IMG/VR virus record: IMGVR_UViG_3300006790_000851 | Location: 1 to 20,558 of that record | Source: a virus | Strand: one strand, 5' to 3' | DNA: 20,558 bases | Part shown: piece after piece, positions 5,930 through 19,610 of the stretch | Layout: each line of letters starts with the position of its first letter | Position numbering within the stretch: the stretch's first letter is position 1 | Translations under genes and position numbers: made by a program | The notes under the pieces: model-generated | Told to the model about the DNA's origin: nothing | The model's input: the letters and a program-made list of their open reading frames with translations, nothing else | Database searches by the model: none

Positions 5930-7540
5930 TCAGCATAAATGTTTCTTGCCGACAATATACACCCAGTGGCCGCCAAAGCCGATCACGCCCTCGTTGGCAG
6001 GCATGTTGTCTATGCCACCAGAGTCTCCGATTTCCCAACGTATTTCAAGGTATTGCTCCATCCCGTGCATGAGCGGCATACCGCCAGGAACAGCAGCGCC
6101 GACGCTCGGAGCCATGATAGTTCTAGGGAACTCGGTACTCAAAGCCTGCCCCGCAAACACAGGGCGGCCGGTGTCATTCAAAGCGCTGCTTACCGAACTG
6201 TTATACCCAGAGCCTTCTTCACCAACCACATACACAAGCGGTATGTTCATAAGCTGCATGTTTTCAGTGCGGATAATAGACTGATCTATCTGGTACAGCG
6301 TCTTGTTTGTAGGCGTCCACTCAGCAAACGCTAGCTGCCTACTTTGGAACAGGTCACTGCGCACTCCGCAGCCAAGGCCAACCCCAACTTTGTTGGTAAA
6401 CGTAGCCGACGTGGGCACAACCGCCCCCACGTTGACGCAGGCAAACACGTGGTGGATTGTCATAGGGAACTGCAGCGGGATGATGCGTCGGTCGCACACA
6501 GCGTTTGAATACGGTGCCGCACCAATCAACGGCAGGAACGGAGTGTCGTCACCGGCCGGCACTCCGCCACGACAGTACCAACCGTTACCCCACATAGGGA
6601 CTGCGATGATTTCGTAGGCAGCGTCGTCGAGGATATTGCTCTTGAATGTCTGCCTACTCTTCTCGCTGTACCCACCCTTGAGGCGGTTGTGGAATACCGT
6701 GTCAATCTTTTCGAGCGCTGTCTGAACACCGTCCCCGGCTGCGTTGTCATCAGCGGTAATCAGAGCGCCAGCAGCCGGCGCAGTCGTAGTTACCGGGCTG
6801 ACTGACCTGCCACCCTTGTGACTGGTGGGGATGTTCTGCAACTCGTTGTCATTGCTGACAATCTTGTCCCGCTCCATAAGAGGTGCATAGAAGTCAAGGG
6901 TAACTACAAGGCTGTTGATTACCAAGTCTGCAGCGCTGCTCTGAAACGAGCTAAGATCAACCTCAAGGAACAGCACCTGATAAGGGTCAACGCTGATGCC
7001 TAGCCCCGTCTTGATGCTGGGGTTTTGAACGAAGTCAGCGTTGCTAAACTGCAGGCTATCGAAGGTGATTGATGCAAGTTGGTTATCCGGGAAGCCAGCC
7101 GAGCCACCGAACACCAGACTCTTCTTACTAAAGATGTTTACTGTAAACTCAACATGATCGACCTCGTCAAAGTCCAGGCTGCCATCTTCCTTAGTGGCTG
7201 CGGCCTCTGCCCGCTGGTCGAAAGACAGGCTGATGGAGTCCAGCACGTAACTGATGTCCTGAGGGTAACTGACCCCATTAGATCGGAACATCTCCTGAGG
7301 AGGGGCAAGGGTGAACGATGCCTGTACCTGCCTGCGGTCAGTGCTCCCTGACGCACCACGCTTGGGCTGTAGCCCAGACCACGGGAACGATATGCGGAAC
7401 CGACTGTTGGCGGTGTCCATGTTGGACGTTTCCACGCCTGTGCTGGTAAACCGGGTAAGCGATTTCTGAATCTGAGTATGGATGTGGCTGGTGAGGAGCT
7501 TGACCCCACGGCTCAGCCTCTTGAAACCAATCTTAGGCAT
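5930..7540 (-). CDS. Virion/tail-fibre-type structural protein (536 aa)
   Basis: I do not recognise the family. The N-terminus (residues 1-30) is basic. Residues about 90-240 are beta-rich, with alternating hydrophobic residues and a DHVEFTVNIFSK strand at 128-139. A Thr/Pro/Ala linker follows near 245-265, and a long Gly/aromatic-rich C-terminal part runs from about 290 to 536. The start overlaps the end of the 258-residue gene by eight bases (ATGCCTAA), so the two are coupled. This architecture, and the position between nozzle and core genes, suggest an exposed tail or spike component. Residues 96-139 resemble residues 107-151 of its upstream neighbour in strand pattern, which may reflect a shared beta-sandwich fold. 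There is no signal peptide or catalytic motif. Host-binding function is inference. Confidence 0.85.
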   Translation of the reverse strand: MPKIGFKRLSRGVKLLTSHIHTQIQKSLTRFTSTGVETSNMDTANSRFRISFPWSGLQPKRGASGSTDRRQVQASFTLAPPQEMFRSNGVSYPQDISYVLDSISLSFDQRAEAAATKEDGSLDFDEVDHVEFTVNIFSKKSLVFGGSAGFPDNQLASITFDSLQFSNADFVQNPSIKTGLGISVDPYQVLFLEVDLSSFQSSAADLVINSLVVTLDFYAPLMERDKIVSNDNELQNIPTSHKGGRSVSPVTTTAPAAGALITADDNAAGDGVQTALEKIDTVFHNRLKGGYSEKSRQTFKSNILDDAAYEIIAVPMWGNGWYCRGGVPAGDDTPFLPLIGAAPYSNAVCDRRIIPLQFPMTIHHVFACVNVGAVVPTSATFTNKVGVGLGCGVRSDLFQSRQLAFAEWTPTNKTLYQIDQSIIRTENMQLMNIPLVYVVGEEGSGYNSSVSSALNDTGRPVFAGQALSTEFPRTIMAPSVGAAVPGGMPLMHGMEQYLEIRWEIGDSGGIDNMPANEGVIGFGGHWVYIVGKKHLC

Positions 7541-8902: not shown

Positions 8903-11484
8903 CGACCCACCCGCCGACGTGCTTTGCTGCGCAGGCGGAGGAGCATCTTAGAACTTTTGATTCGGATGGATTCCGCTTTGTTTCGCATGAACCCGAACAT
9001 CATGTAGCTGATTGTTTCGCCACGTGTGCTGTCCGAAGTCTGGATGGTATCAAACTCTTCATCGTCGATGAGGTAGTCACCATAGGTTGCAGCGTTGTTG
9101 AAAGTCTTTGGTGTGATCGAAGTGGACGAGCGGAAACGACTGCGAACACTAAGTTTGTTAGCAATCGACTCTATGTTTCCACCTGTAAAATCAATCACTT
9201 GGGATGACCAGTCTTTCCAGTCGCTACCAAGAAGGGTGTTGTAGACACCCCACAGCCAGCCAGTAGATAACTCGCTTGTGGCTGTCCCGTGGCTAACCAT
9301 TGAAGTAAACAGGCCACGTGACTGGATCTGTGCATTGCCGTCGCTGACCTGAATACCTTTGTATGCCCAGTCGACTGCCTGCGCTTTATTGTCATTGGCG
9401 TTGAGCGCACCAAAGTAAGACTGCCAAACATACACTGACGGGTTAGCTGTACCGGATGCGCTAGTCACAGTGGATACTACGTTGCTAATACCGTAACCCC
9501 AAAAGTTGCCAGCAGCTACTGAGCCGGTCAACGTGTACCATGGGTTGCGCTGACTAGGTGTTGTGTTTGTTGTAACCGCTGCACCCAATGCAATGCTTAG
9601 GTTATCTTTGCCGGCAGCAGGAGTTAGGGTCAGCGTGTAGTTTGCAGCGTTCAGCAGCCGCTCCGTCGGAACAAGGCCGGTGCCGTTGAAACTAAAATTT
9701 GAATCCTGAAAGTCAAACGACAACAGGCTCGCCGTTGGGTTCTTGTGCGTAGCGTCGGTGACTAAATCAATCTGTACCTCGTACTGACTCGTGTTGCTAT
9801 TGTAGGTAGGCTTGCCGATATAATAGCGGTTGGAGTTAGTTGCCGAGCCATAAACCAGCTTCCAGTAACCGACGACGGTGCGGCTGTCCTCATCCTTGAT
9901 GCTGCGATCAAGCGCACCGCCACGGCCGTACTGCATAAGGTAGTAGCTAGTGCTGTCTACCTGCTCAGTGGTAATAGCATCCGTAACCGTCTCAGTTTCA
10001 ACGCTGCCGACCATAAACAGGCGGTCGCCGGTGTACATCACAAATGGATGTTCAACGTTCTTAGTAACACCAACAAACGAAACGCCACCACTGACTGCGA
10101 CGCTGCTCTCTAACGGCCAGATACTCCACTCACCGCCAGTATATACCCAACATACATTGCTGCTAGCAAAACAGGCCACAAGCGCCTGCTTCTCTTCCCA
10201 GTATGATAGCGATACGGTTTCACCGTCTTTGTACCTGTACAGTGTAGTGGGTTGTTCATTGTTTACAGGATCAGCAACACCGCTGGCTGTGAGGTAATGA
10301 TTCAGTGGCGAAGTGATACCAGCAGCAAAGAATGAACTAATCGGAGTGCTCAGTTCTTGTAGTTCGGTGCCGTTGCCTGAGAGATAGATGCCGCTCTTGC
10401 TGACCCAAAACGTTCCAGACCCTGTCGAGTAGACAGCCGTTTGCGAAACGCACCCTACAGTGTTGCTAACGGTAACGAGGAACCCGCTTGAGGCGAGCTT
10501 ACCAACCGACGGCTGATAGAAGAACGTTTCATCCTCAGTAAAGATCATCAGGTTATCGAGGACCTGACTCATAGCGGTAATACGGTTTGACGTAGGAACC
10601 TGAATAAAGTTGTTAGCCGCAAAACTGTTAGGCGTACCCACGTCGCTAAAGAACACTTCATTTTTGCCGGCAACAGCTAGTCTTCCGCCAACGCTTGCGA
10701 TTGCCTGCACAGCCGGTAGTTCGGAGTTGTTTCTGTATGTGAAGCCCTCAGTAAACACGCCGTCAACAGCAGTCAGGCGGTTGATCAATGATGATTCTGA
10801 ACGACCATTCACCCAGTCGTTTTTTTGCGCTGACTCTACCTGCCCTGTCTTAATCTTACGAAAGTCCACAGGGAAGTAGGACAGGATACCGGTAAACTCA
10901 TTGCCGAAGATAAGACCGGACTGGAAACCGAGAAAGAAGAAAGGCGCATCAAGACCACCAACGAAGTTCTGTCGATCGAAGTCTTGGTTCGTTTCGTAGC
11001 AGCCGTGCCATGTGGCTGGGCTGTTTGATGTAGTTGCTCTGCCGGGGCTTTTGTTTTGCCCGGTGTGGTTGTGCAGGACTTCCTCGTAAAACTCACCGGT
11101 GTCTACATCGTGGATGCTTACACTATAGTAAACGCCCCAGCGGTTTGATGAGTCAGCCTCAGAGCCATCGACGCCTTCCCCGGATGACGAGCGGACCTGG
11201 AACACTGACAAGATCTGAGTGGTGCCAAACTCAGTTTCGATGGCGTGGCTGCCAAGATGTTTCTGATAGCCAGCGCTGAAGTCCACGGGGTTCACCCCTT
11301 GGAACACGTTGCTTACGTTGCTGAGCGTGGTGTCAATCTGACCTAACTGGCCAAACCCACTGCGTACCGACAGGTATGCCTGACCATCAGGACGCCATAC
11401 ATTTTGCGCCCAGTCTCCACGCTCAAGGTTTCGGTCCTCGACACCACCAGCAATAAGTTCAAACTCAACGCCAGGTACCGCCAT
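8899..11484 (-). CDS. Tail nozzle / tail tubular protein B-like (861 aa)
   Basis: This long, almost wholly beta-rich protein lies directly after the adaptor gene, the position of T7 gp12 and P22 gp10. Residues about 256-370 contain a run typical of nozzle propellers: VGGRLAVAGKNEVFFSD, then NRITAMSQVLDNLMIFTEDE, then TFWVSKSGIYLSG. These are repeated hydrophobic strands with 'value displayed on a sensor' loops. The final 15 residues are strongly basic (LRLRSKARRRVGR). The start overlaps the preceding stop as TAATG, and the stop overlaps the next ATG as ATGA. The protein probably forms the distal tube below the adaptor ring, through which DNA leaves. The length is in the range of T7 gp12 (about 800 residues). 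Confidence in the family is good, but it rests on remembered patterns, not a search. Confidence 0.85.
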   Translation of the reverse strand: MAVPGVEFELIAGGVEDRNLERGDWAQNVWRPDGQAYLSVRSGFGQLGQIDTTLSNVSNVFQGVNPVDFSAGYQKHLGSHAIETEFGTTQILSVFQVRSSSGEGVDGSEADSSNRWGVYYSVSIHDVDTGEFYEEVLHNHTGQNKSPGRATTSNSPATWHGCYETNQDFDRQNFVGGLDAPFFFLGFQSGLIFGNEFTGILSYFPVDFRKIKTGQVESAQKNDWVNGRSESSLINRLTAVDGVFTEGFTYRNNSELPAVQAIASVGGRLAVAGKNEVFFSDVGTPNSFAANNFIQVPTSNRITAMSQVLDNLMIFTEDETFFYQPSVGKLASSGFLVTVSNTVGCVSQTAVYSTGSGTFWVSKSGIYLSGNGTELQELSTPISSFFAAGITSPLNHYLTASGVADPVNNEQPTTLYRYKDGETVSLSYWEEKQALVACFASSNVCWVYTGGEWSIWPLESSVAVSGGVSFVGVTKNVEHPFVMYTGDRLFMVGSVETETVTDAITTEQVDSTSYYLMQYGRGGALDRSIKDEDSRTVVGYWKLVYGSATNSNRYYIGKPTYNSNTSQYEVQIDLVTDATHKNPTASLLSFDFQDSNFSFNGTGLVPTERLLNAANYTLTLTPAAGKDNLSIALGAAVTTNTTPSQRNPWYTLTGSVAAGNFWGYGISNVVSTVTSASGTANPSVYVWQSYFGALNANDNKAQAVDWAYKGIQVSDGNAQIQSRGLFTSMVSHGTATSELSTGWLWGVYNTLLGSDWKDWSSQVIDFTGGNIESIANKLSVRSRFRSSTSITPKTFNNAATYGDYLIDDEEFDTIQTSDSTRGETISYMMFGFMRNKAESIRIKSSKMLLRLRSKARRRVGR

Positions 11485-12200
11485 TAGAACCGTCCGTAGT
11501 AATCACGCTGCGGGGTAATGTACTGGGCATTGTCAGAGACACGGCCAGTGGTCAGGTAGGTTTCAAGCTCGCGCTCTTTGCGGCCCATCTGCACCTGCAG
11601 CGGCTCGTTGAAAGCACCGTCTCGAATGGCGTAATACTGAGCAGCGTACATCGCAATCAACTGGTGATGCGGACGCAAGTCATCAATGTAATCAGTGGAC
11701 ACCGAGGTCCAGTTGATGATCGGTTCCCTGATGTACTCCAAGCGGAGGTACTGCCCGGAGTAGTCATAGGCAACAATCAGTGACTGACCATTGACGCAGT
11801 AATCACCTTGACCCTGGCTAACCTGCAGCGATGTGGAAGCCGGCGTCAGGTAGTAGTTGAGGTTGTCACCAGTAGAACCAACAGCACCAGGAGGCGAGTC
11901 AACAGAACCGATGCGGACAATCCGGGACATCAGTTTGTTTTGAGCCACAGCCGTTGCACCGAGTATAGGATGGGTGTCGGTGAAGTTGGCACCATCCGCT
12001 AGGCTAATCTCAGCTTGCGCATTGGGCACCAGCATATAGGTGCGCTCAACAAAGTAGTTTGGGTCAATGGATGTGACCTTCTCACGGAAGTCACTGTACC
12101 CTGCCTTTAGGTAGGTATTGGTGTTGTCCGACGTAAGGAAAGTCTCGTCAGTGTCATCGACCAGCGACTGGAACAGGTTGTAAACTTCACCAACGTTCAT
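11484..12200 (-). CDS. Head-tail adaptor / tail tubular protein A-like (238 aa)
   Basis: The N-terminus (MNVGEVYNLFQSLVDDTDET, then a LKAGYSDFREKV helix by residue 43) is typical of podoviral head-completion adaptors. Two helices pack against the portal, followed by a beta-rich insertion (about 50-165) and a C-terminal helical segment (HHQLIAMYAAQYYAIRDGAF, then KERELETYL). It is encoded between portal and nozzle, as are T7 gp11 and the P22 connectors, and its length fits gp11. It probably forms the ring that joins the portal to the nozzle and keeps packaged DNA in place. The start overlaps the portal stop as TGATG. No competing start is better supported. Confidence 0.87.
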   Translation of the reverse strand: MNVGEVYNLFQSLVDDTDETFLTSDNTNTYLKAGYSDFREKVTSIDPNYFVERTYMLVPNAQAEISLADGANFTDTHPILGATAVAQNKLMSRIVRIGSVDSPPGAVGSTGDNLNYYLTPASTSLQVSQGQGDYCVNGQSLIVAYDYSGQYLRLEYIREPIINWTSVSTDYIDDLRPHHQLIAMYAAQYYAIRDGAFNEPLQVQMGRKERELETYLTTGRVSDNAQYITPQRDYYGRF

Positions 12201-14101
12201 CAGCCGCCTCCCATATCATTGCGCCGTAGGCCCTGCTCAGGATTAGCGTCACCGTCTAACATCTGGCGTGCGATCTTGAGTGAGTTTAGTTTGTTAAACT
12301 CAGTGCTCTGTTGCAAGGCCGCAACCGGACTCTCCATGGCAATAACTTGATCTGCTGCCTGACGGGGGTTCTTGGTAGCACGTGGGAACACACGGTCGTT
12401 GACTAGCTTATCGACGAACTGGTTCTCCGGCGAACCGAAGGTTTCGATGCTGATCAGAACGTCACGTAGATAGTTCTGCCGTTCCTCAGGTAAGCTGTAG
12501 TAATCAGGGCTACGAATAAAGTTACTAAAGACCTCACGGAACGCCGGCAGATCGTCAGTAGTAAAGATTTCAATCTCGTTTCCAAGTGCTGCAGCCTGAA
12601 GGATGTCGTTAGCATGAGCCATCGCCTCCATCTTCTCAGTGACAAATGCGTTGCCTGTACCGAACTGCAACTCAGTAAGGGCAGTCGTCTTATCAATAAG
12701 ACCAAGCTGCAATAGATCAATGATCTTCTGATCACGGTCCTGCTTCTCATTGCGGAACAACGAGCCAGCCTCGATAAAGACTTCAGGCTCCTCAACCAAC
12801 GATGTGGCCTGCAGGTACTTGAACACAACCTTGCCGAAGCTATCTAGCATACGGACCATCTTACCCTCGGTATAGTACCGCTTCATCAGAGTAAGAACGA
12901 TGGTGCCAAGGTCGCTGGCAGCTTTCTCAATGTTAGCCTGGGTAGTCTGCAGTTGCGTAGCATCCTTAGCAGACAGTTCTTCAATAGCCTTACCGGAGGT
13001 AACACCGACGGCCCGCTTACCAAGCGAGGTAGCGTGTAGGCCACTTACGTCCATCATCTCACTAGCAATCTGCGAGATGTTCTGCAGGACAAAGCCCGGT
13101 AGGCTTGGGGGCGTTACAGCCGTGGGAGCGCCACCGGCTGGGTTGTAGTAGACCTTCTCACCACGGCGATTGGTAATAGCGTTTGGTCCAACCCCTGATG
13201 TCTTTGGAATCAACCACTTAGGATTGCCAATAAGGTCAGCGTTTTCAATGACTTGGGCGCGTGATCGGTTGTACTGAGACTGCAGGTCAATCAGCGGCTC
13301 AAGGCAACCAACGCCCCAGATGCGCCCCGGAATATCGGTGTACCGAATAAACTGCAGTGGGTTAGTCTCGCCGAACCACTTACCTTTGAACAGGTAGGTC
13401 GTATCGAGGAGCACCCGCCGCTCGTTGTTGCGGAAGAAAATCTCGTAGATCTTCAAGCGGTCTTTGAGCTTTTGCTTAGGGTACAACCCGAAGGCATTGC
13501 GCAGTTGGTCATCGTAGCTGCTCGCTGCAGCCTTCTTAATCTGTTCTTTGAACTCCGGGTAGGCAGCCTCTAGCTCATCCCGGTTCACCAACTTGGAGTA
13601 GGCAACATAGTTGCTTTCCTTGATGCGCATAGTGCCGGGCTCGAAGTACATGCGATACGGGTCAATGACCTCGGTGCAAACATCCCTGCCGTTGTAGCGA
13701 GTGTACATACCCACGTTGCCACAGGTAATCAGCCAGGAGATAGCCTCCTCAAAGATTGTGGGCATCTTCTCCCGTGCCCAGTAGTACCGCAGCGCAGCCT
13801 CGCTTGTCTTGGCTTTGACAATGTCTTCAGGCGACGGACTAGACGGCAGCACCGTCAGGGACGGATAGGCAACCGACAGGCGAGCCTCAAGGTTCCGGTA
13901 GATGTTGATCAGCAAGTTGATGGTGACATCGCTCGTGTCCCGCTTGCGACGACGGAAGTCATTGATCGTGCGGTCGTAGTAGAGGTGCTGACGCCCCTGC
14001 AGGTACAATAAACAAAGGTCCCAAGTACGGCTGAACCGATTCTTGTCCTGATCAAAGTCAGACAGCTTCGTCTTCATTACCGCCGCTTTAGGGATCTTCA
14101 T
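12200..14101 (-). CDS. Portal protein (633 aa)
   Basis: The protein forms the dodecameric ring at one capsid vertex through which the terminase packages DNA. Residues 105-157 carry a pattern common in podoviral portals (YYW, then GNVGMYTRY, then VIDPYRMYFEPG). Residues 258-299 carry the wing-stem motif (PGRIWGVGCLEPLIDLQSQY followed by NRSRAQVIE and GNPKWLIP). A helix-rich region with SGKAIEELSA and TQLQTTQANIEKAA follows, and the C-terminus is Gly-rich (DMGGG). The length, 633 residues, is near the P22-type portals rather than the shorter HK97-type. The ATG overlaps the stop of the 51-residue gene as ATGA, and its own TGA overlaps the adaptor ATG. Its position downstream of the capsid and holin-like genes is unusual. 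Confidence 0.93.
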   Translation of the reverse strand: MKIPKAAVMKTKLSDFDQDKNRFSRTWDLCLLYLQGRQHLYYDRTINDFRRRKRDTSDVTINLLINIYRNLEARLSVAYPSLTVLPSSPSPEDIVKAKTSEAALRYYWAREKMPTIFEEAISWLITCGNVGMYTRYNGRDVCTEVIDPYRMYFEPGTMRIKESNYVAYSKLVNRDELEAAYPEFKEQIKKAAASSYDDQLRNAFGLYPKQKLKDRLKIYEIFFRNNERRVLLDTTYLFKGKWFGETNPLQFIRYTDIPGRIWGVGCLEPLIDLQSQYNRSRAQVIENADLIGNPKWLIPKTSGVGPNAITNRRGEKVYYNPAGGAPTAVTPPSLPGFVLQNISQIASEMMDVSGLHATSLGKRAVGVTSGKAIEELSAKDATQLQTTQANIEKAASDLGTIVLTLMKRYYTEGKMVRMLDSFGKVVFKYLQATSLVEEPEVFIEAGSLFRNEKQDRDQKIIDLLQLGLIDKTTALTELQFGTGNAFVTEKMEAMAHANDILQAAALGNEIEIFTTDDLPAFREVFSNFIRSPDYYSLPEERQNYLRDVLISIETFGSPENQFVDKLVNDRVFPRATKNPRQAADQVIAMESPVAALQQSTEFNKLNSLKIARQMLDGDANPEQGLRRNDMGGG

Positions 14102-14253
14102 TTGGAGTAGTCTCCCATTTTACGTTTTGCAGCGTTTCTGCGCTGAACGCTATAGCCAATAGCAACTGCCTGCTTGGGTTTGTACCCCTCGCTGATCAGC
14201 TTCTTTGTGTTTTTCTTCCGGGTTGCCTCGGAGTATCCCTTACCAAGTGGCAT
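14098..14253 (-). CDS. Small basic protein of the 'MPLxKG...KQAVAI' phage type (51 aa)
   Basis: The ATG at 14253 lies immediately after a TAG (14256-14254) in the same frame, and the TGA overlaps the portal ATG as ATGA, so the gene fills the gap before the portal exactly. The 51 residues are basic. They begin MPLGKGYSEATRKKNTKKL, continue SEGYKPKQAVAIGYSVQRR and end with a Lys/Arg-rich tail. This resembles a widespread family of very small phage proteins of the form MPLxKG...I..N...L...G.P.KQAVAIA, which I know from memory and whose function is not known to me. GGAGATGG lies seven to fourteen bases upstream and can serve as the ribosome site. The gene is likely real because of motif and fit. 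Confidence 0.75.
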   Translation of the reverse strand: MPLGKGYSEATRKKNTKKLISEGYKPKQAVAIGYSVQRRNAAKRKMGDYSK

Positions 14254-14475
14254 CTACCATCTCCACTCAACGCCTACGGTTCCGACCCAATCGGCGGAAT
14301 CTCCCCAGGCAGCGCCTGCTGCGAGCGTTGCTGTGAGGTCGAGTTCACGCCCGACTGTATGTCTAGCAGCAACACCAGCATCCCACCTGTCAGTATTCCC
14401 AGCAAGAAAGAGGTCAAGACCCCCATTATCACCAGGGCGCAGATCAACAGGTTTTATACCTCTGAGTCCGAGGGC
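14254..14475 (-). CDS. Putative -1 frameshift extension of the holin-like gene (73 codons, no start codon)
   Basis: In the frame -1 to the holin-like gene, 73 codons follow the slippery heptamer and end at TAG (14256-14254), directly against the next ATG. This stretch has no ATG, GTG or TTG, so it cannot be a normal separate gene. It reads as protein: a loop (GIKPVDLRPGDNGGLDLFLA), then alternating strands (RWDAGVAARHTVG, RELDLTATLAAGAAW, ADWVGTVGVEWRW) ending in an aromatic residue, like paired beta-hairpins of a membrane or periplasmic beta domain. By hand count, 52 of 73 codons start with a purine, against 24 of 50 in the competing frame from the ATG at 14426. A slip after codon 70 would give a fused protein of 143 residues with two membrane helices and a beta-rich tail. 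Expression is inferred; the frame itself is seen. Confidence 0.55.
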   Translation of the reverse strand, partial: ALGLRGIKPVDLRPGDNGGLDLFLAGNTDRWDAGVAARHTVGRELDLTATLAAGAAWGDSADWVGTVGVEWRW

Positions 14476-14684
14476 TTTCCCGTTTGGGCTGCTGCTGCCT
14501 CCACTGCTGCTCGCTTCTGCTTAGCAACATCTTCCATAGAGATTCCCAACACACCGCCTAATGCTCCTAGTACAGATGCAACGATAGCCTCTGTAGGCAG
14601 ATCAGGCCAAAAATGGCTAAGCAAAACAGGAAGAAGCGCCGCAAGAAGGGACAGCCAAAGTTTGCGTGATTTCATCTTATCCAT
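14454..14684 (-). CDS. Holin-like small membrane protein (76 aa)
   Basis: The protein has a basic N-terminus (MDKMKSRK), a first hydrophobic segment at about 9-25 (LWLSLLAALLPVLLSHF), a short turn with Pro-Asp-Leu-Pro, and a second segment at about 32-49 (EAIVASVLGALGGVLGI). A charged, Ala-rich C-terminal tail follows. Two membrane helices, small size and a charged tail fit a class II-type holin or a related small phage membrane protein. AGGGG lies nine bases before the ATG, overlapping the end of the DUF2793-type gene. A second ATG (codon 4) could give a dual start of the kind known for holin/antiholin pairs, though its own ribosome site is not obvious. A slippery heptamer sits at codons 68-70, so this 76-residue form would be the unshifted product. 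No endolysin is seen nearby, so lysis function remains inference. Confidence 0.8.
   Translation of the reverse strand: MDKMKSRKLWLSLLAALLPVLLSHFWPDLPTEAIVASVLGALGGVLGISMEDVAKQKRAAVEAAAAQTGKPSDSEV
14475..14481 (-). promoter_or_regulatory. GGGAAAG slippery heptamer (candidate -1 ribosomal frameshift site)
   Basis: In the holin-like reading frame the codons are ACG GGA AAG, so the heptamer G GGA AAG is in exact X XXY YYZ register. The same heptamer drives the -1 shift of phage lambda G to GT. A GGAGG lies 16 bases upstream and a small CCTC/GAGG stem (4 bp, 7-base loop) starts two bases downstream. Both are weak as stimulators. Confidence 0.55.
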
Positions 14685-14686
14685 GA

Positions 14687-15403
14687 TCAGATCCCCTGTG
14701 AGAACGTAATAAACACAGTGAGTGCAGGCAGGTTGCCACCAGCGTCGGTCGTATTTACAGCAATACCGTCTCCTGCGGCCAGTTTGATAACGCCAGCAGA
14801 CGAAGCCGTGGGACGCAAAATCGCAGCACCCGTTTGATCGCAGGTGAACTGCGGGAAGACGTTAGCGGGGCCGGGGCCAATAATGTCCACAAGGCACCCA
14901 GCACCACCTGCTGCAGCGCCTTGATAGATGGTACAATCGTGAATCACCACTGCATCTTTGACGGTTATTGAGTAAAGACCGCTAACTCCAGGCGCTGTGT
15001 CAAAACGATAAACGCCCAGCGGAGCGCCAGACTGCAGCGGATAAACAACTGCGTCCTGATCGAAGTTGACCGTGCGGCTGAAGAATGACGAAGTAAGTTC
15101 AGCAGAGGTGCCGAGCGCATCGAAATCTGTGGTTGTAACCCAAGCGCTACCCTCAAAGCGGTAGTACAGTGCGTTGGTCTTATCGAACACCGTGTCTTGA
15201 TGGGTGGGGTAAACAAACTCCCACCGATCACCACCACGCCGCACTGCGATGTGATCCTCTTTGCCAATCCAGCGTCCGGTCGCACCGGTGTCCGCAACAA
15301 GCCACATCTGGTTGTTGGGAGTAGAAGCGGGAGGCGTTGTTGAGATGCCCTCGACCACAAAGGTTGGATCGAATGTCTGAGGGCTAGTAAGCGAAGTAGA
15401 CAT
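14687..15403 (-). CDS. DUF2793-containing virion (head or tail fibre) protein (238 aa)
   Basis: Residues about 24-89 match the DUF2793 pattern as I remember it: a small-residue/Pro entry, MWLVADTGATGRWIGKEDHI, then GDRWEFVYP, then NALYYRFEGSAWV. This domain is found in tail and fibre proteins of phages and gene transfer agents, often near receptor-binding parts. The rest (90-238) is beta-rich with Gly/Ala/Thr turns and no catalytic motif. The start has AAGGA five bases upstream, following an eight-base gap after the previous stop. Being encoded among capsid-proximal genes, not beside the nozzle, it could be a head fibre or capsid decoration rather than a tail fibre. The domain call is fairly secure; the location on the virion is inference. 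Confidence 0.82.
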   Translation of the reverse strand: MSTSLTSPQTFDPTFVVEGISTTPPASTPNNQMWLVADTGATGRWIGKEDHIAVRRGGDRWEFVYPTHQDTVFDKTNALYYRFEGSAWVTTTDFDALGTSAELTSSFFSRTVNFDQDAVVYPLQSGAPLGVYRFDTAPGVSGLYSITVKDAVVIHDCTIYQGAAAGGAGCLVDIIGPGPANVFPQFTCDQTGAAILRPTASSAGVIKLAAGDGIAVNTTDAGGNLPALTVFITFSQGI

Positions 15404-15411
15404 GTTGTTCC

Positions 15412-15786
15412 TTATGCGGTGAGCTTCTTAAGTGCTGCCGCTAATAGTTCTTCTTTTTTTGCAGCAGCCTCAGCCGCTTTCATTTCACTCTTATACCCGG
15501 CAGCGGTCATGCCACCTTGCAGCGCAGCGTTAGCGAGACTTGCGTCCTCGTTGCCCATAAGAGCTTGGGTAGCTTCGCTGCCAGCCGAGTACGCACCCAT
15601 CATTGCCATGGGATTACCGCCGGTAGCCAAACCTGCGCCTGCTGCAGCTAAACCACCGCCAATCACACCACCGATGCTTTGACCACGCTTAGCCTGCGCT
15701 GCTTTGCGCATCATTTCTTCGCGTCGTATATCGGTAGCTTTTGCTTTGCGCCCAATGACGCTGCCAAGTCCTCGGTAATCCATCAT
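15412..15786 (-). CDS. Small Ala/Gly-rich virion protein (about 124 aa)
   Basis: The protein has a basic N-terminal part (DYRGLGSVIGRKAKATDIRR), a Gly/Ala-rich hydrophobic centre at about 38-70 (IGGVIGGGLAAAGAGLATGG and MAMMGAYSAG), and a Lys/Ala/Glu helical tail (EAAAKKEELLAAALKKL). The glycine-zipper-like centre suggests membrane interaction or packing inside the particle. Start choice is ambiguous: GTG at 15789, ATG at 15786 (TGATG overlap with the upstream stop) or ATG at 15783, which has GGAG at the best spacing (five bases). I chose 15786 as the middle option. The family is not recognised. Position between capsid and fibre genes suggests a minor head or ejected protein. Confidence 0.75.
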   Translation of the reverse strand: MMDYRGLGSVIGRKAKATDIRREEMMRKAAQAKRGQSIGGVIGGGLAAAGAGLATGGNPMAMMGAYSAGSEATQALMGNEDASLANAALQGGMTAAGYKSEMKAAEAAAKKEELLAAALKKLTA

Positions 15787-15932
15787 CACTCCATGATGTC
15801 GTCGATCGACACGGGGCCGTCATCTTCTAAGTTGCTGTAATCCTGTGACCACGCAGAGCGGATGGCCCTGGCTACCATGAAGATAGCCAGAGCCTCCGCC
15901 CCTTGAAGTAACAACGAGATTACCTCAAGCAA
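15786..15932 (-). CDS. Short single-pass membrane protein with TTG start (48 aa)
   Basis: Between the capsid stop and the next gene there is an open frame starting at TTG (15932). AGGTG lies seven bases upstream, overlapping the capsid stop region. The product starts with a hydrophobic helix (LEVISLLLQGAEALAIFMVA, residues 2-21), continues with a basic boundary (RAIRSAW) and ends with an acidic tail (NLEDDGPVSIDDIME). The TGA overlaps the next start. No other gene fits this 145-base space, and the clear membrane-plus-acidic-tail design argues for a real protein. The frame also contains an ATG at codon 19, which would remove most of the helix. Function unknown; a strong RNA hairpin lies inside the coding region. 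Confidence 0.55.
   Translation of the reverse strand: MLEVISLLLQGAEALAIFMVARAIRSAWSQDYSNLEDDGPVSIDDIME
15864..15894 (-). other. Strong RNA hairpin just downstream of the capsid gene
   Basis: On the transcribed strand the arms GGCTCTGGCTA and TAGCCAGGGCC can pair over 11 bp with one G-U wobble, around a nine-base loop (TCTTCATGG). The wobble pairs only in the minus-strand RNA, which fits a role in that transcript. No T-run follows, so it is not a simple intrinsic terminator. It may be a pause, processing or mRNA-stabilising structure that sets capsid expression apart from downstream genes. Confidence 0.6.
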
Positions 15933-15934
15933 CG

Positions 15935-17218
15935 TTACACACCTGCGTAGCTGATGCCGACAAGGATGCCGTTGCGGTTCGGGTGGCTACAAACCAAGTT
16001 GTAGTAGTAACGAACATACGCTTCGTACGCATCTTTGTCACCAACACGCGACAGCACGTTGCCGTCGAGGTTTGCAAGTTCCGGGGACTGCACCTCGGTA
16101 ATAAGCCAGCTATCCGTCCGAAGGAAGATAAGCAGGCCTTTGCCGCAGTGACGACTTACCTTGAGCGGAAGCCCGTTGAACGAGAACCCACCGGTGAAAC
16201 CAGCGTCGCCGTTATCGACGTTCTTGCGAAGCGCGCTTGCGCCAACAAGGCCCGCACCAACCGTCTGAACCAGAAGGCCCATGTATTCCTGACGGAAGAT
16301 GTAGTGAGCAATCATGCAGTCAGGCATTTCACCCGAAGCCGACATGATTTCGTCGAGCATAAACTGCAGGCTCTTCGGCGTCACCAGCGAGGTGCGAGCA
16401 CCGTCGTCAGCAACCGCACGAATCGTGCTTTGCAGGATGCTGTCACCGGTAGCCGTCGAGCGGTCAGTGCCGAAGTGGTTCAGCGGCGTGGCATACTTTT
16501 CGCCACCAGCAAGGTTGCTGTAGATCCCGCAGGTCATAAGGTCACGGGCGTTACCGGCCGTGTCGTTTTGGCAGACAACTGCGCAGGCCACCTTGTTGCC
16601 AAGAGCCGACGTGTTGACCGCAGCATCAAACGTAACTTCGCCAGCGTTGGTAGCGTGCTGCGTAACGGTGCCAGTGTGAATGACAGCGTAGGTATCCAGA
16701 CGGATAACCTTGCACGGAACCGTAGCCGGGTTTGCCGGGATCTGCTCAATGTTCCCACTGAACTGGTGGTCAGCGCTGTTGATGTGCTCATGAATGAACC
16801 CAACGCAGCCGTTGCCCACGAACATTGCCGAGTCGGCAGCGTTCTTCACAGTTTCGATCGCACCATCAAGCTCGCTTTCAAGAGCGTTCAAGAACGCACC
16901 TTCGCTAGCCTTAGCCTGCGCAATCGCCGGACCCGTCAGAGCCATGCGACCGTAGAGGTACTTGGCTTCGATCTGCAGATCCTTGTAGGTGTTTTGTCCG
17001 TCGTCAGGCAGGGTTCCGCCGTCTGCACGGTAAGCGCCGGATGCGTTACGAGCCGTACGCACGGGCATAATAACTTTGCGACCGGTCCACGTCATTTTGC
17101 GACGATTGAACAGGTCGAAGATCATCATTTCGTTGTTAAGCTGATCCCGGACAGGACCGGCATAGTGGTCCTTCAGGATTGCATCCAACGAACTGAGGGG
17201 ATTAGGAGTCAGTGCCAT
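15935..17218 (-). CDS. Major capsid protein (427 aa)
   Basis: The 427-residue protein follows directly after the scaffold gene, and its length fits HK97-fold coat proteins. The N-terminal arm (about 1-40) leads into a KVIMPVRTARNASGAYRADG segment and a DLQIEAKYLYGRMALTGPAI strand pair that are common in phage coat proteins. A long helix (about 108-130, GAFLNALESELDGAIETVKN) fits the spine helix. A beta insertion with VTFDAAVNTSALGN occupies the middle, and the C-terminal half has the P-domain-like sequence ending GILVGISYAGV. AGGA lies nine bases before the ATG. It is expected to assemble into the icosahedral shell around the scaffold. The reverse strand is open over the whole gene, a sign of strong codon bias rather than a second gene. 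Identification rests on order, length and pattern. Confidence 0.88.
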   Translation of the reverse strand: MALTPNPLSSLDAILKDHYAGPVRDQLNNEMMIFDLFNRRKMTWTGRKVIMPVRTARNASGAYRADGGTLPDDGQNTYKDLQIEAKYLYGRMALTGPAIAQAKASEGAFLNALESELDGAIETVKNAADSAMFVGNGCVGFIHEHINSADHQFSGNIEQIPANPATVPCKVIRLDTYAVIHTGTVTQHATNAGEVTFDAAVNTSALGNKVACAVVCQNDTAGNARDLMTCGIYSNLAGGEKYATPLNHFGTDRSTATGDSILQSTIRAVADDGARTSLVTPKSLQFMLDEIMSASGEMPDCMIAHYIFRQEYMGLLVQTVGAGLVGASALRKNVDNGDAGFTGGFSFNGLPLKVSRHCGKGLLIFLRTDSWLITEVQSPELANLDGNVLSRVGDKDAYEAYVRYYYNLVCSHPNRNGILVGISYAGV

Positions 17219-17228
17219 TTCTTATATC

Positions 17229-17972
17229 CTAGAAAATGCCTTCTTTCAGGAGTCTTTCTGTAACCTCCCGAATCGAAGTAGCGTTAAACTTGTTACCTGG
17301 CTGACTATCATGGCCGCCAGTGTGCCCAACCTCGGGCGGAATATCAGACTCTGCAGAGGGAGACTGACCATATTCTTGGGTGTACCGAGCGATTGCAGCC
17401 TCTTCGATTTCAGCAATGTGCGCCGAGTAGACAGAAGCCAGTTCAGTCATGTTGGTTGACGGGTCATCAATAACCGCTTGCAACAACATTTCCGACGGAA
17501 CGTTTGGGTACTGCTGCTCAATCGAATCAAGCTCACGCTCGATAAGGTCGTACTGTTGCTGCTCGACGATTTGATCCATCGAGTGCCGCAGCACATCTAA
17601 CTCAGAAACCTCTTGGGGCTCCTCAGCGTAACCGTAATCGCTTTGTTCTTCCTGACCCAGAAGCTGCTTCAAGTTGTTGATTTGCTTGAGTTGTTCCTCT
17701 AGTTCAGCAATGCGGGCCTGACTCTGCTCAGCCTGCTCGGCGTAACCATTACGCGCTGCGATTACCTCAGAAAATCGGCTGTAGGGAACGGAGTGACCAG
17801 TTTCGGTTTCTTCGTCACTGTCCTCATATTCCTCGTACTCACTACTGCCTTCATCCTCGTACTGCTCGCCCTCGTCAGAGTGAGCCTCGTGGGTTTCGGG
17901 TTCGTGTTCGATTTCCTCTCCACGGAGTTGGGCGAGCACTCCTTCTCGTTGCTCGTTACTTAGCACCGACAT
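17229..17972 (-). CDS. Capsid scaffold protein (247 aa)
   Basis: The protein is strongly acidic, with an almost continuous Asp/Glu run at about 19-58 (EEIEHEPETHEAHSDEGEQY and onward). HSVPYSRFSEVIAARN (about 60-75) follows, a motif seen in many phage scaffolds, and then a coiled-coil region (about 78-107, QARIAELEEQLKQINNLKQL). The last part ends with a helix (SIREVTERLLKEGIF) that may bind the coat protein. The gene sits between terminase and capsid, with a ten-base gap to the capsid ATG. AGGGG lies seven bases before its own ATG. It probably guides coat assembly and then leaves or is cleaved; no protease domain is seen in it or next to it. Confidence is high from composition plus position. 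Confidence 0.87.
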   Translation of the reverse strand: MSVLSNEQREGVLAQLRGEEIEHEPETHEAHSDEGEQYEDEGSSEYEEYEDSDEETETGHSVPYSRFSEVIAARNGYAEQAEQSQARIAELEEQLKQINNLKQLLGQEEQSDYGYAEEPQEVSELDVLRHSMDQIVEQQQYDLIERELDSIEQQYPNVPSEMLLQAVIDDPSTNMTELASVYSAHIAEIEEAAIARYTQEYGQSPSAESDIPPEVGHTGGHDSQPGNKFNATSIREVTERLLKEGIF

Positions 17973-18023
17973 TTAACGCCCCTTTCATGCGCGGATAACG
18001 CCCCGCCTAGCGAAAACGCACCG
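17973..18023 (-). other. 51-base terminase-scaffold gap with a repeated 9-mer
   Basis: This is the largest gap between genes in the window. TAACGCCCC (plus-strand reading) occurs at 17974-17982 and again at 17996-18004, 22 bases apart. On the transcribed strand the copies read GGGGCGTTA, and one overlaps the scaffold ribosome site. There is no recognisable -35/-10 pair. It could hold a late promoter of a phage-specific polymerase or an operator, but neither is shown. Confidence 0.35.
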
Positions 18024-19610
18024 TTATGGAGACAAGTCTCCGAATAAATCTTCCAGAGGATTTGGTGCGAAGTCATCCTCGGAAGCTGTAGCAAAGGCAC
18101 GTCCTGTCGCCATTTCCCACTCGATCATTTCTCTAGTGTTCGATGGACGCTGTTGTTGGACAACTTCTGCTACAATATCATCTACTTGATCTAATCCCAT
18201 CAAAGCAAGGCCAGTTGCAATCACAATGTCATCGTGCTTGCCGCTAGCAGCCTCTACCTTGCCACGTGAGTTGTAAACTAAGGCGTTGGCCTCAGCCATA
18301 AAGTTCTGGTCGATCACCTCGCACCAGCCCCTTGTAATGTACTCGTAAAGCCTTGATAGTAGTAGGTTTCTGCTTTTGGCATTGGTGTTGAAACCGTACC
18401 GTGGGGTGAACATACCTTTTACTTTGTCCCAGTACTGATCCCGGTACTGACGTGGGTAAGCCTTGGATTGCAGGTGCTCAATGATGGACAGACCATAACT
18501 GTTGGACTCGACGACGGCCAAGGCGCTGTACTTGGCTGCCATCTCGTGGACTACTTCGCCAAAATCCGACGGCGCAATGTGGTCGTAATAACTGGCCACC
18601 ATTTCGATCTTTTGCTGATTAGATACATCAAGGACCATGATAGCACTGAAGTCACCCCCTGGGGAGCCACTAGCAGTATCCACCCCCATGGCGTAAACAT
18701 GAAACTTCTGGGGTTGCTTGTAGATTTTGAGCCCGGCGGTCGTTGACTTGACAGGCCACGGGTCAGGGAAGAACCGGCTGCCACTAGTGACAAACGCCAT
18801 CTCTGCGGAGACAGGAAACTCCTGATTGAAGATCTGCCAGTTGTTAGCGCATTTGGTTCGCAGGACCTGCACCATCCAGTTGCGCTGAGGATCAGTGAGG
18901 TTGTGCTTCTGGGCGTACTGTCGTTCTAACTTGCTGAAGTCTTTGAACGCTGGGTTCTTGCGGGTGTAGCGATCATCAATCGTCCAGCCCATAAACATCT
19001 TGTCGAACCCATTCTCGGACTGCCACATCTCATAGGCTTCATTGAGGCCGTTAGCTGTAGACTCCAGAATGACGGTTGCGTTGGCCTCTGCTGTACCGAA
19101 CAGACCTGCAATGGTTTTGCCGAGGTTGGGCCAGAAGGCGTACTCACTGGCGTGGATGTACTGGTAGGTCTGCCCACGGAAAGACTCTGACGATGCAGTG
19201 CCGACCTTGATCATACTGCCCGTCGCTAGCTTCAGGGTGTTCGACCGGTCATGCAACGCACGCACACGGATGTGGTTTGGCAGGTTCTTGTAGAAGAACT
19301 GGTAGATGGAGAAGATAGCCTTAGACGCTTCGTCGGTGTGGGCCACCACTGCGATCTTAGTGTTCTTCTTAAACAACGCTTTCCAAAGGAAGTACCCCGC
19401 AATAAACGTCGTTGACCCCAGCTTACGAGCCTTCAGGATCATCAAGTGGTTTTCAGTCTTGAGCTTCTCGAAGACCTGTTTCTGGGCCTGGTTCAGCTTG
19501 AGCGTCGTTTCCAAACCGTGGATGTCCACGATCTTGAGGTATCGCTCCGCAAAGTAAGGGAAGTCCTTGGCGCACCGAAGGATTTCCTTTTTTACTTTAA
19601 CGCTGCTCAC
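18024..19610 (-). CDS. terL: Terminase large subunit (528 aa)
   Basis: This motor ATPase and nuclease cuts concatemeric DNA and packs it into the prohead through the portal. The ATPase domain shows a Walker A-like ARKLGSTT at 61-68, a Walker B-like YIHASEY at 151-157 with candidate catalytic Glu156, and a coupling motif ILESTANG at 181-188. The nuclease domain shows Asp311 in GVDTASGSPGGDF, Glu368 in AVVESNSYG and Asp460/Asp461 in GKHDDIVIA, the three acidic sites expected for an RNase H-like fold. The start is GTG at 19610, overlapping the upstream TAG by one base, with AGGTAGG just upstream. The length is normal for the family. The upstream helix-turn-helix gene may be its partner. No missing key residue is seen. 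Confidence 0.95.
   Translation of the reverse strand: MSSVKVKKEILRCAKDFPYFAERYLKIVDIHGLETTLKLNQAQKQVFEKLKTENHLMILKARKLGSTTFIAGYFLWKALFKKNTKIAVVAHTDEASKAIFSIYQFFYKNLPNHIRVRALHDRSNTLKLATGSMIKVGTASSESFRGQTYQYIHASEYAFWPNLGKTIAGLFGTAEANATVILESTANGLNEAYEMWQSENGFDKMFMGWTIDDRYTRKNPAFKDFSKLERQYAQKHNLTDPQRNWMVQVLRTKCANNWQIFNQEFPVSAEMAFVTSGSRFFPDPWPVKSTTAGLKIYKQPQKFHVYAMGVDTASGSPGGDFSAIMVLDVSNQQKIEMVASYYDHIAPSDFGEVVHEMAAKYSALAVVESNSYGLSIIEHLQSKAYPRQYRDQYWDKVKGMFTPRYGFNTNAKSRNLLLSRLYEYITRGWCEVIDQNFMAEANALVYNSRGKVEAASGKHDDIVIATGLALMGLDQVDDIVAEVVQQQRPSNTREMIEWEMATGRAFATASEDDFAPNPLEDLFGDLSP
18028..18041 (-). repeat. Inverted repeat at the terminase 3' end
   Basis: GGAGAC and GTCTCC are separated by two bases, giving a stem of five to six base pairs just before and into the terminase stop region. 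No T-run follows. It may be a minor hairpin at the terminase-scaffold boundary, or chance, because it lies inside coding sequence. Confidence 0.3.

Follow-up and report, generated by a model that had tools for sequence, protein, structure and literature searches.

To our knowledge, the way in which many capsid subunits and few tail proteins are made from co-oriented late genes is understood in a handful of model phages. Stem-loops behind the capsid gene are already on record for P22, HK97 and lambda: the P22 record NC_002371 carries a stem_loop at 6102-6119 with the remark 'similar in location to stem-loops in phage HK97 and phage lambda', and in lambda the E gene is followed by ATGGCCCTTCGGGGCCAT. 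Terminators behind the capsid gene are described for T7 (PMC5592923) and for JG068 (PMC3765740). For E. coli, Dar and Sorek 2018 (PMC5927463) describe hairpins that lack a uridine tract and sit where the RNA of stabilised upstream genes ends. Of 34 operons whose 5'-most gene was stabilised, 26 had a stable portion ending just past a stable hairpin; 17 of those 26 hairpins lay in the downstream coding sequence, where wobble conservation was enhanced, and the authors tied the pattern to resistance to 3'-5' exonucleases.

In this work we have analysed a hairpin element behind the major capsid gene of a virus in IMG/VR (record IMGVR_UViG_3300006790_000851). The whole stretch studied, 20,558 nucleotides, is called the window. 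Its recognised genes are all on the minus strand and the sense RNA is therefore the minus strand; the co-oriented late genes presumably share one transcript. The gene order and the hairpins are as follows.

18024-19610, minus strand: terminase gene
17229-17972, minus strand: scaffold-like ORF (weak Pfam match, below the cut-off)
15935-17218, minus strand: major capsid protein gene, 427 amino acids (PHROG 14242, major head protein, E 3.2e-31), stop codon TAA at 15937-15935
15786-15932, minus strand: small ORF of 48 codons, TTG start 2 nt 3' of the capsid stop, both hairpins inside
15902-15929, minus strand: hairpin A, 11 pairs, 6-nt loop (RNA fold)
15856-15901, minus strand: hairpin B, 20 pairs (13 G-C, 3 G-U), one bulged A, 5-nt loop (RNA fold)
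12200-14101, minus strand: portal gene

Further small ORFs lie between the recognised genes, and large ORFs continue to the end of the window. The portal, which is P22-like, is encoded downstream of the capsid gene (12200-17218, minus strand); several small ORFs and a DUF2793 protein are encoded in the interval, and the order differs from that of P22, where the portal gene stands ahead of the capsid gene.

Hairpin A starts 5 nt past the capsid stop codon, immediately after the TTG of the small ORF, and hairpin B adjoins it with no gap, so that the two together contain 31 pairs. The initial annotation, made from the sequence alone, had described here an 11-bp hairpin with one G-U pair formed only in the sense RNA, about 40 nt behind the capsid stop and inside a small reading frame. 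The inverted repeat (15864-15874 with 15884-15894) is indeed present, with 11 pairs in the minus-strand sense; it begins 40 nt past the stop, within the ORF, and its one G-U on the minus strand becomes A-C, a mismatch, on the plus strand. The hairpin is confirmed, but it was drawn too small, since it is the inner part of the 20-pair hairpin B. Nor is its pair count rare: stems of at least 11 pairs (G-U allowed) gave 7 counts on the real strand, nested stems counted apart, against a mean of 4.0 in whole-window shuffles. It is the folding energy that is exceptional. The minimum free energy of the sense RNA (91 nt) is -52 kcal/mol, compared with -28.3 +/- 3.3 in dinucleotide shuffles (z -7.2, none of 200 as low), and in a scan of the minus strand in 80-nt windows the post-capsid site, with a residual z of -7.5, is the strongest in the window, the next best reaching -3.7. 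The plus strand, too, folds better here than its own shuffles (-37.2, z -6.6, 0/200); in the 80-nt scan its residual z at the site is -3.0. A chance stem was ruled out by the energy together with the conservation described below, and an antisense or two-strand DNA structure by the weaker plus strand. A known RNA family was likewise rejected, as a search of 15700-16100 against Rfam gave no match at E up to 10. The only other stem of at least 13 pairs on the strand, with 14 pairs (G-U allowed), lies in a large ORF at 9160-9199 (minus strand); shuffles average 0.75 counts of such stems and it is therefore probably due to chance.

Is the element peculiar to this virus? Capsid searches of IMG/VR, the last and widest of which comprised 42 loci, yielded relatives with 33-94% capsid identity, numbered here with an L. 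A stable hairpin is found within 150 nt past the capsid stop in 40 of 40 assessable loci (the window and 39 others), with a local z between -2.9 and -8.2, each value being that of the most extreme among up to 18 overlapping windows, selected on the sense strand. L053 and L069, whose capsid match is incomplete, were excluded from this count, L039 was run but is not counted as it has only 12 nt past its stop, and the partial capsids L033, L034 and L012 stand outside it. In 35 of the 40 loci the post-stop hairpin tops all other 80-nt sense windows examined (377 to 2025 per locus, G+C corrected), the exceptions being L043, L048, L050, L056 and L057. The antisense of the chosen best window, which was picked on the sense strand, is weaker in 40/40. 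When an unpicked stretch of 100 nt was folded, the sense strand did better in 17 of 17 representatives, chosen by us like those used for recoding, blastn and stem counts; measured against background windows of each locus, the gap between the strands has a z of -1.2 to -4.1, weakest in L058 (-1.2) and L004 (-1.8).

Within the class of the window the structure is retained closely. All 11 pairs of hairpin A are kept in the five distinct sequences, and in hairpin B 99% of the cells are paired over the five, with one pair broken in one of them. Between groups the sequence changes altogether: blastn (E 0.001) among 12 in-family representatives links only the window with L036 and L004, and L040 with L045, and about 8 sequence groups can be counted if L055 and L059 are taken as aligned by MAFFT. 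The main stem has 20 pairs in the window, 23 in L045, 25 in the outer helix of the L042 class and 16, including 4 G-U pairs, in L057. The pair numbers for L040, L055, L058, L060, L061 and phiKMV include interrupted outer stems, and the automatic choice of the main hairpin took minor helices in L042, L046, L048, L059, L070, L075, lambda and P22, for which the tails were not used. That whole stems differ between groups and the hairpin nevertheless stays is stronger evidence than covariation.

Farther away, INPHARED holds just 12 records of capsid relatives, with 24-32% identity, and no DNA relative of window positions 13500-18500, and a pattern-based search found no related capsids in bacterial genomes. 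The best 60-nt windows past the capsid gene of distant relatives reach z values of -2.0 (L075), -3.2 (L074), -3.9 (L072) and -4.5 (L073); the four model phages used as controls, compared with their own short regions, gave -1.0 (lambda), -2.5 (P22), -3.0 (phiKMV) and -3.4 (T7, 10B). From these weaker values it follows that the strength of the hairpin in the window is not general.

How does the element compare with the described systems? Like P22 and lambda, and like HK97 by the word of the P22 record, the window has a stem-loop directly past its major head gene; the likeness is one of position and we claim no homology. In P22 and lambda the stem-loop is small, with 6 and 7 pairs respectively, and occupies the space between annotated genes, whereas the two hairpins of the window total 31 pairs and are contained in a small ORF. 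The comparison with T7 made in the initial annotation holds for position, as Tphi, past gene 10, is annotated at 24210, 48 nt past the end of 10B. The Tphi hairpin is followed by a U-tract, as is the terminator annotated past gp32 in phiKMV, which sits at the same place; the window lacks such a tract. Two capsid relatives, the podovirus ctEqG8 and Arthrobacter phage Jasmine (24 and 27% identity), carry terminator-like hairpins at the same gene position. That of ctEqG8 has a U-tract and is called by a consensus scan, and in Jasmine a T-run, CTCTTTTTGC, is visible by eye. These stems contain at most one G-U, are followed by T-runs, lie between genes and are nearly equally stable on both strands, in contrast to the window hairpin, which is sense-biased, coding and without a T-run. 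The element also resembles the protective hairpins of E. coli of the malE-malF type (PMC5927463): a stable hairpin without a U-tract behind an upstream gene, embedded in a downstream coding sequence with kept codons. Such embedding with wobble conservation, which is frequent and not obligatory there, is also found here. Unlike those hairpins, whose mean distance into the next gene is 107 nt, the phage hairpin follows directly past the capsid stop, and its stem sequence is wholly different between groups of relatives; protection would here be putative.

The small ORF deserves separate consideration. The hairpin lies within such an ORF in all classes except L057 and L058, and the ORF has 48-68 codons where complete. 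In the window its product (LEVISLLLQGAEALAIFMVARAIRSAWSQD) has a hydrophobic first half and an acidic end, and across the classes the first half is hydrophobic and the end charged, as in L042 (VEWIALSLDLAQTALVFIIWRDVRNWWGSD); this composition suggests a membrane protein, and the small hydrophobic peptide is probably translated weakly. No PHROG or Pfam family was found for the ORF at the cut-offs used, and three of eight versions gave weak PHROG matches (E 0.17-0.44; 0.41 for the window). Relative to the capsid gene the ORF is in frame 2 in the window, L040, L045, L046, L061 and L070, in frame 1 in L042 and L048, and in frame 0 in L055 and L059, where it has its own start at +27. As the frame varies among relatives, a longer capsid protein made by a frameshift of the T7 10A/10B type or by stop readthrough was rejected as the common purpose. 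In L057, which is on the same contig as L029, no ORF of at least 20 codons with a usual start crosses the hairpin and an open hydrophobic frame persists, so the small ORF there may be a remnant. L058 has the hairpin without any ORF of at least 20 codons across it, and at least in this locus the hairpin is thus independent of the small ORF. An endonuclease VII gene (L058:4332-4793; PF02945, E 3e-22) comes next, its ATG falling within the last part of the stem, and may have been inserted at the post-capsid junction.

Could the hairpin be a by-product without any function of the RNA, the similarity arising from the peptide sequence and from a recombination junction that holds a short stretch alike? 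Some of the identity patterns point in this direction. In the pairs window/L035, L040/L041 and L063/L066, high identity runs into the capsid end and breaks abruptly past the small ORF, marking a module boundary, and in L061/L068 it extends downstream; exchange at a module boundary therefore contributes too. We observed besides that the gene after the small ORF switches abruptly between close relatives (window 15412-15932, minus strand; L035, L041, L048/L049, L063/L066), which places a module boundary after the hairpin ORF. However, the conserved stretch of L036/L004 and of L061/L063 stands out as an island between flanks of lower identity, and recombination does not account for different hairpins at one place or for the bias to the sense strand. 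The energies also exceed synonymous recoding. When 31 codons were recoded with the codon usage of the capsid gene, the observed energy was reached in none of 1000 cases in 10 of 12 representatives (once in L004 and 19 times in L070). In the harder test, in which the own synonymous codons were permuted, it was reached in 0/1000 in six of the twelve, in 3 each in L004, L055 and L059 and in 13 in L046, and the result was not significant for L048 (61/1000) and L042 (181/1000). The first 31 codons also show more conservation than those of the capsid gene in 10 of 21 pairs chosen by us (p < 0.05, one-sided, the pairs not being independent), for example 27/27 against 163/291 in L061/L063, 25/25 against 202/346 in L061/L068 and 26/28 against 152/304 in L036/L004. 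We consider an absence of RNA function to be extremely improbable.

The initial annotation had proposed a search for compensatory changes in related phages. This search yielded few such changes: there were no double changes in the class of the window, one in the L042 class (columns 15 and 85, U-A replaced by C-G) and two between L040 and L045, and shuffles reached these counts in 81 of 500 (L042 class) and 152 of 500 cases (L040/L045), so covariation proper does not count as evidence here. As the stems are nearly invariant within a class, this test can give little. In the class of the window, 6 of 12 unpaired columns are variable compared with 4 of 62 paired ones (p 8e-4), a count made by hand over 5 sequences with neighbouring columns that are not independent. 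Of the four variable pairs, three still pair by one-sided changes and the fourth is broken in L004. The main pairing is centred at i+j = 100-102, that is at codon 17, in the class of the window, in L040/L045 and in the L042 class (13 distinct sequences), three groups that align codon by codon and none of which blastn links to another. This shared centre is more telling than the double changes.

The RNA behind the capsid gene is thus structured, with a bias to the sense strand and with conservation beyond the protein sequence, and relatives have hairpins of different sequence at the same place. What might such an element do? The hairpin probably helps to set the amount of the shell protein relative to its neighbours. 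By analogy with the E. coli hairpins, the element would form a 3' boundary and so protect the capsid portion of the long late transcript, and we consider the chances of this to be about even. The sense RNA past the capsid stop would form a selected, very stable hairpin at the 3' boundary of the capsid segment, and decay of the downstream RNA (or cleavage) would run 3' to 5' until it meets the hairpin; the capsid message would then outlast the remainder and capsid protein would be made in excess over the downstream proteins, while the same nucleotides would serve as codons of the small, probably weakly translated hydrophobic peptide. We infer that the hairpin would act by resistance to exonucleases and would raise the ratio of capsid to downstream products. 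The puf operon was weighed as an analogue; the passage on it in PMC3997798 gives no description of hairpins. Several points speak against protection: translating ribosomes would open a hairpin inside an ORF, T-runs at the same place in some relatives point to termination there, covariation proper is not significant and the permutation test fails for L042 and L048, and outside the family, in lambda, P22, phiKMV, T7 and the distant relatives, the energy is not always exceptional.

Among the roles that the initial annotation had offered, namely partial termination, RNase III processing and transcript protection, the last fits best with a hairpin that has no U-tract, is embedded in a coding sequence and has kept codons. 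Termination is its main rival. A leaky terminator or attenuator like Tphi would stop some polymerases past the capsid gene, and it would sit at the same place as Tphi and the phiKMV terminator; in favour of it are also the U-tract of ctEqG8 and the T-runs seen by eye in Jasmine and in L059/L060. In the L059/L060/L062 class the T-run, CTTTTTTTG, adjoins the stem, with 6 T in 8 after the stem of L060, L062 having been seen as a stem only. The consensus scan, however, calls neither L059 nor Jasmine. The window itself has no T-run after the stem, as had been noted initially, with at most 3 T in 8, and the terminator consensus scan found nothing at its hairpin. The G-C-rich stem expected of intrinsic terminators is there (13 of the 20 pairs of hairpin B), but 20 pairs including G-U are unlike the usual intrinsic terminator. 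Because the U-tract is absent, intrinsic termination is unlikely in the window, and a leaky terminator in this class would need to act without one, for instance through a factor or a phage-specific mechanism; overall we think it unlikely. It could be that the hairpin is constant and the U-tract variable; whether through termination or through decay, the capsid message would in every form end in a hairpin.

Protection also has to be weighed against translational control, in which the hairpins would restrain the weak start and the early codons of the small hydrophobic protein, so that it is mainly ribosomes fresh from the capsid gene that start the small ORF, at a low rate. In the ORF-bearing classes except L055/L059 the start codon is often GTG or TTG and is found -1 to +17 nt from the capsid stop (first base), hairpin A comes immediately after the TTG of the window, and ribosomes could toggle the alternative fold considered below. 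Yet L058 keeps its hairpin without such an ORF across it, hairpins or terminators also lie past the capsid gene in phages with a different next gene, and L055 and L059 start at +27; we find this explanation quite unlikely. A site for RNase III is a duplex of about two turns. Cleavage of such a duplex would split the capsid message from the downstream message, and several classes have stems of at least 20 pairs (the window, L045 and the outer helix of the L042 class). Hairpin B has 20 pairs and one bulge; stem length and interruptions differ between classes, and L057 has 16 pairs. We regard an RNase III site as very unlikely.

Two short stretches allow the RNA of the window to fold differently (constrained fold).

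15918-15923, minus strand: GTAATC, left arm of the closing stem of fold II, inside hairpin A
15837-15842, minus strand: GATTAC, right arm of the closing stem of fold II, conserved, 3' of hairpin B

Pairing of the two closes one long hairpin, fold II, which excludes hairpin A and resembles the structure predicted for the L042 class. When constrained, fold II has -54.1 kcal/mol compared with -58.1 for the fold with hairpins A and B, a cost of 4 kcal/mol; the cost is about 9 kcal/mol in L036 and about 5 in L003, and there is none in L004, where both folds are equal. The retention of GATTAC may be explained by fold II or, equally, by the peptide QDY. Perhaps the element senses translation of the capsid gene: finishing ribosomes would cover hairpin A and bring about fold II, and both the stability of the message and reinitiation at the hydrophobic ORF would be altered. 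We regard such a sensor as highly improbable. If it existed, the small protein and the downstream genes would both be tied to capsid output through one RNA, and peptide and hairpin would co-evolve around a fixed apex at codon 17.

A literature search on post-capsid hairpins in phages found no paper devoted to one, nor any account of a family whose hairpin, variable in sequence from group to group, is kept within the codons of a small hydrophobic gene. Here an uncultivated family retains such a hairpin in the codons of a tiny gene, with a sequence wholly different between groups and with a T-run that is sometimes present and mostly absent. These variants form a natural series for testing termination against mRNA protection. 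Terminator scans of viral contigs miss elements of this kind, as in the window, where none was found. In one class more than the first hairpin appears to be kept: in L061 (4291-4490), as well as in L063 and L068, codons past the first hairpin are retained too, 27/31 in both L061/L063 and L061/L068, and the stretch CCTCCCCGTGTTCAGCGGGGGGG of this class suggests a second hairpin.
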